In this document: one piece after another, positions 13,691 to 39,671 of the stretch | Numbering within the stretch: position 1 is the first letter of the stretch | Layout: each line of letters opens with the position of its first letter | From: Stenotrophomonas lactitubi | Lineage (GTDB): Bacteria; Pseudomonadota; Gammaproteobacteria; Xanthomonadales; Xanthomonadaceae | Assembly: GCF_002803515.1 (NCBI RefSeq) | Contig: NZ_PHQX01000001.1 | Location: 62,001-126,000 of the forward strand | DNA length: 64,000 nt | Direction of reading: 5' to 3' | The notes under the pieces: generated by a model | Databases searched by the model: none | Seen by the model: the letters and a program-made list of their open reading frames with translations, nothing else | What the model was told of the DNA's origin: nothing | Made by a program: the position numbers and the translations under genes

Positions 13691-13755
13691 ATGGCATCCG
13701 ACCCCGTTCAGCCCGGGCTGTTACACTTGGCGGGCCGGTTCGCCGGTACACAAAC

Positions 13756-13893
13756 GTCTTCAGGGCGGGGTGCAATTCCCCACCGGCGGTAGGTGCGCAA
13801 GCACGAGCCCGCGAGCGCCCCGGCCTTACCGTCGGGGGTCAGCAGATCCGGTCCAATGCCGGAGCCGACGGTCATAGTCCGGATGAAAGAAGA
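13756..13893 (+). ncRNA. FMN riboswitch (RFN element)
   Basis: All conserved blocks are present in order: CTTCAGGGCGGGGTGCAATTC, CCCACCGGCGGTA, AGCCCGCGAGCG, GGTCAGCAGATCCGGT, GCCGGAGCCGACGGTCATAGTCCGGATGAAAGAAG. It binds FMN and turns down the riboflavin genes that follow. The downstream sequence (13904-13955) can form CAGGGCC-TAT-GCGGCCCTG before the ribE ribosome-binding site, so control may be at termination or at translation. A possible -10 (TACACT) is at 13722. This is a clear match, although no covariance search was run. Confidence 0.96.
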
Positions 13894-13975
13894 CGGTGCC
13901 ACAGGGCCTATGCGGCCCTGCGCCCGCCTGTTTGCCTTGCGGCGTTTTTCGCTCACTTTTCGCGGAGAACGTTAC

Positions 13976-16836: not shown

Positions 16837-16935
16837 CTGTAGAGCCGAGCCATGCTCGGCTCACCGTGCAGCGCACGGTTGCGTCCGGCAGTGCGGCGCG
16901 TGATCGAACTGCAGCCGAGCATGGCTCGGCTCTAC
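16837..16935. repeat. SMAG palindrome pair with GTAGAG / CTCTAC ends
   Basis: TGTAGAGCCGAGCCATGCTCGGCT is answered about 50 bases later by AGCCGAGCATGGCTCGGCTCTACA. The pair spans the nusB-thiL gap, and thiL's ATG lies only about 20 bases after it. Confidence 0.88.
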
Positions 16936-16953
16936 AAGAAAGCAGAACGCCCC

Positions 16954-26049: not shown

Positions 26050-26559
26050 ATGTCCCGTTCCCTTCTTCAGTTGATCGGGGGGCCGATGCTGTGCCTGATC
26101 GCGTCGGCCGCAGGTGCGCAGGCCACCCTCACCATCAGCGGTCGCGTGCTGCCGGGCACCTGCACGCTTGCAGCCCCGGCGATCGCGCTGGACCCGGTGA
26201 AGGCCGATGAGATGACGCCAGGTGCCGCCAACAGCGTGAAGGCAGGTGCGTTGAACTTCACCGGCTGCGTGGGCGTCAGCCGCGCGCGCCTGTCGTTCGA
26301 TGGCACGGCCGCCGACGGCGACCCGGAGCGCTGGAAGAACACTGCCGCCGCCACGCCAGCAACGGGTGTGACGGTCGCGCTGCTGGCTGGCGCGACCGGC
26401 AACACGTACCTGAAGAAAGGCGACGCCGACATTCCGGTGGCGGTTTCTGGTGCCACGGCCTCTTATCCGCTGCGGGCGGGCTACTTCATCCCCAACACCA
26501 GTGGCATCAACGCCGGCAACATTTCCACCGAGATCGTGGTAACAGCTGCCTACGATTGA
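26050..26559 (+). CDS. Fimbrial subunit (minor pilin)
   Basis: 169 residues. The start MSRSLLQLIGG is supported by AGGAG eight bases upstream, better than the ATG at 26008 that overlaps the usher stop. A signal peptide (about 1-23, AGA|QA) is followed by TLTISGRVLPGTCTLAAPAI, the typical donor-strand/first-cysteine block, a second cysteine in FTGCVGV and a C-terminal VVTAAYD ending, the beta-strand used by the chaperone. It could be a tip or rod subunit; third gene of the adhesin-usher-subunit unit. Confidence 0.85.
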   Translation: MSRSLLQLIGGPMLCLIASAAGAQATLTISGRVLPGTCTLAAPAIALDPVKADEMTPGAANSVKAGALNFTGCVGVSRARLSFDGTAADGDPERWKNTAAATPATGVTVALLAGATGNTYLKKGDADIPVAVSGATASYPLRAGYFIPNTSGINAGNISTEIVVTAAYD

Positions 26560-26574
26560 TCGCCGATCCGGCCC

Positions 26575-26646
26575 TGTAGAGCCGAGCCATGCTCGGCTGC
26601 TCTTCGATCAGGATCCAGGCAAGCCGAGCATGGGCTCGGCTCTACA
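26575..26646. repeat. SMAG palindrome pair
   Basis: TGTAGAGCCGAGCCATGCTCGGCT and the inverse AGCCGAGCATGGGCTCGGCTCTACA lie between two convergent genes. Confidence 0.88.
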
Positions 26647-26653
26647 AGTGCCG

Positions 26654-27064
26654 CTAAGCAGCCCGCAACTGCACATCCACATACTCGGCCAGCCCACGGC
26701 AGGCCAGCAGCAATCCCTCACGCACGTCATCGCCTACCTGCTGCCCCTCGTCGCCATCCACGCGCACACGCTCGATGGCGTGCAGCAGTTCCAGCAGCAG
26801 TGTCAGCCCGGCATTGGCGCGGTCGATGCGTGCCATCGCGATGCCATGGCCCTGATTGCGGGCTTTCCAAGGCCAAGGGCGTCCGTCGGCGGCCTCCACG
26901 TGGCGAATGCGCTGCAGGCAGCCGAGCAGGGTGATGCCTTCGTCGGCGTGGGCGCCCATCGTGCTGCCCAGGGTGGTTTCCAATGCCTTTGCCAGGTCGT
27001 CCGGCAGGCGTTCGACGGCGTCGCCCAGGGTGGCGAACAGATAGGGATAGAGTGAAGAAGTCAT
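26654..27064 (-). CDS. Small protein of unknown function with structured leader
   Basis: 136 residues, no signal peptide or membrane segment; predicted mostly helical. The start MTSSLYPYLFATLGDAVERL is preceded by AAGGA and is chosen because the longer in-frame ATG at 27295 would translate through three hairpins. I do not recognise the family. Sequence is acidic, with helical DAVERLPDDLAKALETTLGS and LELLHAIERVRVDG segments. It sits alone between a palindrome pair and a structured intergenic region (see 27093-27330). Confidence 0.7.
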   Translation of the reverse strand: MTSSLYPYLFATLGDAVERLPDDLAKALETTLGSTMGAHADEGITLLGCLQRIRHVEAADGRPWPWKARNQGHGIAMARIDRANAGLTLLLELLHAIERVRVDGDEGQQVGDDVREGLLLACRGLAEYVDVQLRAA

Positions 27065-27092
27065 GGCGGCGTCCTTGAGTGCGAAGCAAGGG

Positions 27093-27310
27093 GCCGCCCT
27101 CGCGCTGGGCGAGGGCGGCGGACGGTGCGTGGTTGCAATACCGGTGGCAAAAACGCGAAACGCCGGCGGGCACGAAGCCCCCACGCACCGCCCGCCATAG
27201 ATGCACGGACGGATTGCCTGCCGACGCCGCCCAACAAGGAAAGAGCGACGCCGACAGGCAAGCGTAAACAACGTCTTTGCCAAACGGGATTGCAAGCCCG
27301 TGCCACCCGT
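27093..27310 (-). ncRNA. Candidate structured 5' leader RNA (unrecognised)
   Basis: Consecutive stems on the minus strand directly upstream of the 136-aa gene: an 11-bp perfect stem (27093-27103/27109-27119, loop 5); a 16-bp stem with one mismatch (27117-27132/27181-27196) enclosing a small GGGC/GCCC hairpin; a 7-bp stem TTGCCTG/CAGGCAA (27214-27220/27255-27261); and ACGGG/CCCGT (27284-27288/27297-27301). No known riboswitch consensus is seen. The first stem ends about 17 bases before the ribosome-binding site. Confidence 0.4.
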
Positions 27311-27448
27311 TGTCGGTGGCGCGCCATGATGTGCACGGAAGTGCTGCTATACCAATCAGAAAAGTTTCAATTTCGAAAACGTTGCAGATTCACTGAGCAT
27401 GCAATGCGCGAAGCCAGGTTCACATCGGCGTGGCAGTTGCGACACTTC
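27311..27448. other. Intergenic stretch with no recognised gene
   Basis: Between the structured leader and the next palindrome pair the sequence is AT-richer than its surroundings (AAAAGTTTCAATTTCGAAAACG). It may hold the promoter for the leader. I see no coding signal. Confidence 0.5.
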
Positions 27449-27518
27449 TGTAGAGCCGAGCCCATGCTCGGCTCACCGCGTTCTATCGAAAAGCAGCCGA
27501 GCATGGCTCGGCTCTACA
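27449..27518. repeat. SMAG palindrome pair
   Basis: TGTAGAGCCGAGCCCATGCTCGGCT and AGCCGAGCATGGCTCGGCTCTACA, inverted, about 25 bases apart, before the terminator of the autotransporter gene. Confidence 0.88.
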
Positions 27519-27529
27519 GAAAGCAGAGC

Positions 27530-27562
27530 ACGGCGCCGGAATCATCCGGCGCCGTGCGTGTT
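27530..27562 (-). terminator. Terminator of the minus-strand autotransporter
   Basis: GCACGGCGCCGG-AATCAT-CCGGCGCCGTGC is a perfect 12-bp stem; on the minus strand it is followed by TCTGCTTT. It lies just downstream of the stop codon at 27569. Confidence 0.75.
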
Positions 27563-39308: not shown

Positions 39309-39660
39309 GCGGAGTCGGCCAGACAGTCGCGTCATCCCTTCGGGGGTGCCGAGGAAAGTCCGGGCTCCATAGGGCAAGGTGCCAGGTAACGCCTGGGCGG
39401 CGCAAGCCGACGGAAAGTGCAACAGAAAGATACCGCCTACGTCTTCTTCGGAAGGCCGGTAAGGGTGAAATGGTGCGGTAAGAGCGCACCGCGAGTCTGG
39501 CAACAGACCGGTACGGCAAACCCCACCTGGAGCAAGACCAAATAGGGATCCATTGGCGCGGCCCGCGTTGGATCCGGGTAGGTTGCTTGAGCGTTGCGGC
39601 GACGTAACGCCTAGAGGAATGACTGTCCACGACAGAACCCGGCTTATCGGCCGGCTCCGC
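39309..39660 (+). ncRNA. rnpB: RNase P RNA component, class A
   Basis: About 350 bases with all the conserved blocks: GAGGAAAGTCCGGGCTCC, CAAGCCGACGGAAAGTGCAAC followed by AGAAAGATACCGCC, AGGGTGAAATGGTGCGGTAA, and AGAGGAATGACTGTCCACGA followed by ACCCGGCTTA. P1 is formed by GGAGTCGGCC (39311-39320) and GGCCGGCTCC (39649-39658). It matures the 5' end of tRNAs. The gene is preceded by TAGAAT and followed by palindromes that may help end the transcript. No tRNA lies nearby. Confidence 0.97.
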
Positions 39661-39671
39661 CCCTTCATTCC

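Follow-up and report, generated by a model that had tools for sequence, protein, structure and literature searches.

What is the role of the strongly folded RNA that precedes a small gene on the minus strand, and how could it act on that gene? In the window (the whole stretch of 64,000 nucleotides analysed here), positions 27060-27330 of the minus strand are predicted to fold at -156 kcal/mol, compared to -118.7 kcal/mol (sd 5.0) when the sequence is shuffled with its dinucleotides kept (z = -7.5; none of 200 shuffles as stable). The initial annotation had described a structured leader with an 11-bp and a 16-bp stem ahead of an unknown 136-aa gene, and the fold, both stems (H3, 27119-27093, and H2, 27261-27214) and the gene (27064-26654, minus strand) were all recovered. 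We consider the leader to be a C4-derived antisense cassette that would control its own downstream gene, and give the joint model, including processing, feedback and the off state, a probability of roughly 0.55. The parts, in 5' to 3' order, are the following:

27352..27370, minus strand: block TTGAAACTTTTCTGATTGG upstream of the leader, a candidate promoter region
27302..27320, minus strand: H1 hairpin, GCCACC-GACAACG-GGTGGC, at the leader start; 99.0% of cells paired in 50 leaders
27285..27299, minus strand: b1, the target of C4 segment b'; b1:b' 100% paired in 25 leaders
27272..27281, minus strand: a1, the locus-specific target of C4 loop a'; a1:a' 88% paired in 25 leaders
27272..27299, minus strand: a1b1, the whole target, complementary to both C4 loops
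27214..27261, minus strand: H2, a 17-bp hairpin (the 16-bp stem described before) between target and C4; 97.9% paired
27111..27202, minus strand: C4 antisense RNA, Rfam RF01695, 66.1 bits against a gathering cut-off of 45
27117..27196, minus strand: C4 core with stems P1, P2 and P3, within the RF01695 match
27146..27155, minus strand: a' loop of C4, pairing with a1
27131..27143, minus strand: b' segment of C4, pairing with b1
27093..27119, minus strand: H3 hairpin (the 11-bp stem described before), overlapping the 3' end of C4
27073..27091, minus strand: small hairpin CCTTG..CAAGG, able to hide the SD-like AAGGA
26654..27064, minus strand: gene of the 136-aa protein, a member of an unnamed paralogous family, predicted to be helical

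Blocks like TTGAAACTTTTCTGATTGG were spotted by eye in many, but not all, of 48 upstream regions, and a sigma-70 promoter scan of 26550-27560 gave no promoter-like site. REP-like palindromes with GTAGAGCCGAGC, which we take to be SMAG elements, occur at 16838-16936, 26575-26648 and 27449-27522, and one of them flanks the C4 cassette on each side.

It had been stated that no known riboswitch or leader fits the region, which the C4 match contradicts. Besides C4, an FMN riboswitch and an RNase P RNA (plus strand, 13752-13898 and 39311-39662, respectively) were the sole matches above cut-off in the whole window, both distant, and permissive Rfam matches near the leader fell below their cut-offs and were taken as chance. 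The C4 RNA lying between the two stems and its long-range pairing with a target were absent from the initial annotation. Its suggestion of an undescribed regulatory RNA is upheld by relatives and covariation as regards a conserved structured leader ahead of a small unknown gene, but fails for the core, which is already known as C4.

Direct translational control by the 11-bp stem had also been proposed, the stem lying about 17 bases from the ribosome-binding site. The spacing agrees well enough (15 bases from H3 to the SD-like CAAGGA at 27077-27072), but the control finds little backing: predicted access to the SD and start codon barely shifts between the two main states of the leader (0.40 vs 0.35 unpaired, mean of 50 leaders), and the covariation of H3 is weak. 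The 5' arm of H3 combines the final 3 bases of P1 of C4 with the purine-C-C (RCC) tail that follows; its 6-bp core, GCC[AG]CC/GG[TC]GGC, is mostly conserved and its outer part is not. Taken together over 50 rows, H3 and the SD hairpin were 78.7% paired with 20 cells changed on both sides compared to 10.0 in shuffles (0/500), these being confined to 2 pairs, where the shuffled mean is 3.0 and 499 of 500 shuffles reach that number. The SD hairpin was 92.6% paired in 25 window-like leaders and 78.9% in the 50.

Covariation is stronger in the rest of the structure. The stems of H1, H2 and C4 were 97.0% paired over 50 leaders, and 57 cells changed on both sides were counted against 17.4 in shuffles, none of the 500 reaching 57. 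Both-side changes affected two of the six pairs of H1 and seven of the 17 pairs of H2. The C4 stems P1, P2 and P3 had 99.2%, 96.0% and 85.2% of their cells paired, so that all three stems of the family are present, and P3 contained no both-side change among the 50 leaders. The pairing between a1b1 and a'b' was counted on 25 window-like leaders picked from the 50, since alignment of the a' loop between subfamilies is poor. In these, 94.8% of cells were paired and 100 were changed on both sides compared to 34.3 in shuffles (0/500); the number of pairs changed on both sides was 11, which 7 of 500 shuffles also reached. Such changes were found in 9 of the 10 a-pairs and in 2 of the 12 b1:b' pairs, the other 10 being invariant. 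In a separate count of all 50 rows, on a gappier alignment, 74% of a and 85% of b were paired.

The same cassette is repeated in the genome from which the window comes. C4 was matched there 19 times, 16 times above the cut-off, and 17 of the 19 matches have the cassette form; among 13 other cassette loci scanned, only L024 fails the RF01695 cut-off. Downstream of 14 of the 17 cassettes lies a gene for a paralogous protein of about 118-142 aa, and the most diverged members checked fit the family profile (probability 96.5 for L014 and 97.8 for L018). L019 and L024 have other small genes downstream, that of L024 unrelated by profile, and L022 has no family gene there. These copies establish that the same cassette precedes paralogous genes dispersed over the genome. 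The remaining two of the 19 matches, L025 and L026, are long near-perfect palindromes below the C4 cut-off and without a cassette; they were dropped and are probably an unrelated repeat. A tRNA gene lies close behind the cassettes L010 and L018, but proximity to tRNA genes was rejected as a general feature, being found in these 2 of the 17 own cassette loci and in none of 35 scanned among the 80 loci of named genomes described below.

Such a set of copies allows specificity to be compared between them. Over 57 cassettes, the mean duplex energy was -33.2 kcal/mol for cognate pairs of target and C4 and -21.4 kcal/mol otherwise, and the own pair was the best of its row in 37; with the a segments only, the cognate C4 was the best binder in 28. 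Within the own genome, cognate a-duplexes of the 17 cassettes had -17.0 vs -8.4 kcal/mol (0/20,000 permutations), and the cognate C4 was the best binder for 11 of 17 targets with the a segments and for 9 of 17 with wider segments, in which the long-looped C4 of L018 often outcompetes the cognate one. The difference recurred in 64 distinct named loci, a set overlapping in part with the genomes used before (-34.3 vs -23.7; 0/5,000 permutations). Sites in 11 genomes that correspond by their flanks to the cassette site in the window (15 rows, of which 4 repeat the same genomes) carried nine different a1 sequences, each with a complementary a' (-13.7 to -22.2 kcal/mol); ten of the genomes were matched by the upstream flank and L161 by 527 bases of the downstream flank only, at 79.5%. 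These sequence comparisons demonstrate that a1b1 is complementary to both C4 loops of the same leader and changes in step with them, and the covariation supports pairing between a1b1 and C4.

The presence of many copies with variable a' loops resembles the situation in Acinetobacter baumannii (PMC5320573, in the passages compared), and the C4 RNAs could in principle act mainly in trans on other genes, the downstream gene being a passenger. This is very unlikely, as the a' loops as a set match the a1 segments of their own leaders and the protein family is tied to C4. A profile scan of named genomes retained 80 of 92 relatives among the matches listed (596 stretches), 76 of them in Stenotrophomonas and 4 in [Pseudomonas] hibiscicola. 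All 80 have a C4-like motif upstream of the homologous gene: 75 by pattern within 420 bases, compared to 1 of 320 control windows, and the other 5 by eye.

The C4 immunity system of P1 and P7 belongs to phage or prophage DNA and precedes icd/ant, and the target of its RNA overlaps the site where ribosomes bind to the gene under control. Like P1/P7 C4, the cassette has the RNA fold with a score above the cut-off, two loops (a' and b') complementary to a target of their own operon (here the upstream a1b1) and RNase P-type ends, known here from sequence. To see where the cassette departs from this scheme, it can be set beside 31 phage-type loci (29 distinct), a label that rests on locus layout; they come from other genera, with 4 from same-genus genomes that have one or two copies, and L127 was excluded because its match was off-centre. 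An upstream target was detected both in the phage-type loci (-33.1 vs -25.2; 0/5,000) and in 52 distinct cassettes (-34.3 vs -23.6; 0/5,000). The 29 phage-type loci also have a target further on, at the ribosome-binding site (-27.65 vs -24.05; 0/5,000), whereas none was found in the 52 cassettes (cognate -21.8 vs -22.0; 3,444/5,000 permutations). A T-run of at least 5, taken as a proxy for an intrinsic terminator, lies between target and C4 in 22 of 29 phage-type loci and in none of the 52 cassettes, all of which have runs of 4 or fewer. H2 occupies the place of the terminator in phage-type loci. According to this comparison, the cassette has kept one half of the device, with H2 at the place of the terminator and without the target at the ribosome-binding site. 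It differs from P1/P7 C4 also in its many chromosomal copies with non-phage neighbours among the proteins tested, and in a downstream gene family that is absent from the libraries searched.

The same comparison bears on premature termination of the kind caused by the CI RNA of phage P4, in which C4 would act on the upstream target without RNase P-coupled feedback. The CI RNA has two pairing partners, seqA on its upstream and seqC on its downstream side, and causes termination (PMC4825925, in the passages compared), and a1b1 has the position of seqA. However, no sign of an intrinsic terminator is seen between a1b1 and C4 in any of the 52 cassettes, the leader in the window has no terminator-like site that we could find, and the downstream target is missing from the cassettes, which makes this explanation rather doubtful.

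We favour the antisense cassette coupled to processing. In this model, RNase P would excise C4 from the leader, and the free C4 would anneal to a1b1 in fresh transcripts from that locus. An a1b1 occupied in trans could no longer capture, in cis, the C4 loops of its own transcript, and this new C4 would then fold and be excised too, leaving the mRNA separated or destabilised. The gene would be off when C4 is present; when C4 is scarce, pairing of a1b1 with C4 in cis would keep the transcript whole and the gene expressed. Free C4 would promote the release of the next C4, as in a self-reinforcing switch, and locus-specific a1/a' pairs would limit cross-regulation among copies. The direction of control, off when C4 is bound, is our presumption, and sequence does not fix the outcome.

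A self-reinforcing switch is favoured because of the folding predictions and the RCC tail. When a1b1 was left free in 50 leaders, it was predicted to capture the C4 loops, with a mean P1 probability of 0.27; the value was below 0.2 in 32 leaders and above 0.8 in 9, and capture in cis is not predicted for all. When a1b1 was blocked, mimicking C4 bound in trans, the mean rose to 0.89, with 41 of 50 leaders above 0.8. The RCC tail after P1 is present in 57 of 57 cassettes, and such a tail has a role for RNase P. The C4 core starts with GG, which is partly imposed by the search pattern; the excerpt of PMC5320573 gives GG as a motif at the processed 5' end of C4-like RNAs. These ends suggest that RNase P may cut at the 5' end of P1.

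Could the cis pairing instead silence the mRNA, to be opened by an RNA binding in trans? The Gifsy-1 IsrK locus works through alternative structures, the long-range paired one being inactive, and is switched on by its short RNA (PMC4825925, in the passages compared), and it shares with the cassette a layout in which an upstream element is complementary to a later region. Such a translational lock is unlikely here, as the predicted access to the SD and start codon is nearly equal between the states and there is no sign of a terminator yielding a short a1b1 RNA. As judged from the same passages, IsrK and the SeqA-CI-SeqC system of P4 are like the cassette in having an upstream segment complementary to a later structured RNA, with pairing possible in cis and in trans; the cassettes are unlike both in that no T-run follows the upstream segment and a seqC-like target is missing downstream (PMC4825925).

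Among 61 related genomes, 23 have C4 and 19 have the window protein; each of the 19 has C4 as well, which leaves 4 with C4 and without the protein. In 37 genomes of the same genus, 18 had 8-26 C4 matches, 4 had one or two and 15 had none. Counts elsewhere are lower bounds, with 14 or 11 candidates scored per genome: the maximum per genome was at least 5 in other Xanthomonadaceae (sample of 297 genomes), and class-wide C4 occurred in at least 24 of 369 genomes with a maximum outside the genus of at least 6. Genome G029 had 19 C4 matches and no match to the window protein.

The fuller layout of phage-type C4 loci in related genomes, together with copies that seem frameshifted or stopped (G019 and G001, where the match is split, and G017, which has a TAA), might suggest that the cassettes are decaying prophage remnants without present function. 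This is hardly credible, as pairing is maintained through many compensatory changes and dN/dS against the window gene is low, 0.13-0.16 for the two closest homologues and 0.27-0.34 for five more distant ones; the window gene looks to be under purifying selection. In addition, all six proteins tested from the neighbourhood are of the fimbrial, usher or autotransporter kind, thus not the phage setting before icd/ant, and no relatives of the window protein were found in viral contigs, phage records or plasmids.

The protein itself gave one weak Pfam match below the cut-off and none in NCBIfam or PHROGs, and 21 family members gave weak, scattered matches in NCBIfam and PHROGs and none in PADLOC. 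A sequence search of the PDB returned a single match with an E value of 0.18. The AlphaFold model is helical with a mean pLDDT of 82.5; no Foldseek match reached E 0.001, and the highest Z from VIA-align, 7.3, is within the range that the tool calls common for helical models. Outside the genus, relatives were detected in five of the 297 genomes, four from a single genus and the fifth from a different one. Of the four out-of-genus relatives, two (G232 and G310) lie directly behind a phage-type C4, and a further ORF behind a phage-type C4, in L130, aligns to the family profile with a probability of 93.5. Based on these relatives, the cassette gene probably descends from an ORF that was under C4 control in a phage-type locus.

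Genes behind phage-type C4 also give a hint of what the protein may do. In three phage-type loci (L129, L134 and L147), Pfam assigns the gene immediately after C4 to the SymE-type toxins; seven proteins were scanned, among them one from a cassette (L125). The set to which these three loci belong has a C4 target where ribosomes bind, and SymE would here be under C4 in place of SymR, its usual antisense RNA. In P1, icd is a small ORF of the C4-controlled immI region and encodes a 73-aa division inhibitor, according to the excerpts of PMC11897509 and PMC8201110. By analogy with icd and the SymE-type toxins, it is plausible that the cassette proteins affect growth.

The RNA family is thus the known C4, and what is unusual is a locus-specific target upstream of C4 with none found at the ribosome-binding site. 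The c4-a1b1 motif of Weinberg et al. 2010, listed for gamma-Proteobacteria and phages, implies by its name a1 and b1 segments beside C4, as far as its table row can be compared (PMC2864571). Multiplication of C4 as such is not new, because 21 chromosomal C4-like sRNAs (Group 1) occur in one genome of A. baumannii; like the cassettes they are multi-copy with variable a' loops, whereas the passages compared report neither a linked gene family nor a matching target within one leader, and propose control by two separate antisense sRNAs (PMC5320573). In the parts of the open-licence papers searched, the cassette arrangement was not found described, and no literature linking Stenotrophomonas to C4 antisense RNA was found among such papers.

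The many C4 units, most with their own pair, suggest that a phage immunity device has been turned into host gene switches. We tentatively propose, as a possibility rather than an expectation, that the host adopted an immunity RNA from a phage and expanded it genome-wide into some fifteen antisense switches, which recognise themselves and are largely orthogonal, each guarding one member of a growth-affecting protein family; the specificity at a given locus would turn over without loss of complementarity. Comparable turnover with complementarity kept is familiar from the heteroimmunity of P1 and P7, and if the proposal is true, a heteroimmunity of that type exists inside one host genome. A textbook phage antisense RNA would be tied to a family of chromosomal genes in the Stenotrophomonas maltophilia group (the group judged from relatives), with a handle on an unnamed protein family that has distant relatives under C4 control in phage-type loci. 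The genome offers a natural set of paired RNA specificities, and therefore cross-talk, antisense/target co-evolution and the domestication of phage immunity become directly testable.

Some loci of the wider survey vary in layout. The profile marks the protein downstream of L125 as a distant relative (probability 90.6). In L244 and L246, an a1b1-like segment, as seen by eye, stands almost directly before a relative of the cassette protein with no C4 between. In genome G608, which is of 1.5 Mb, four C4 matches lie within 1.4 kb (C9:1700-3092), apparently as a tandem array.
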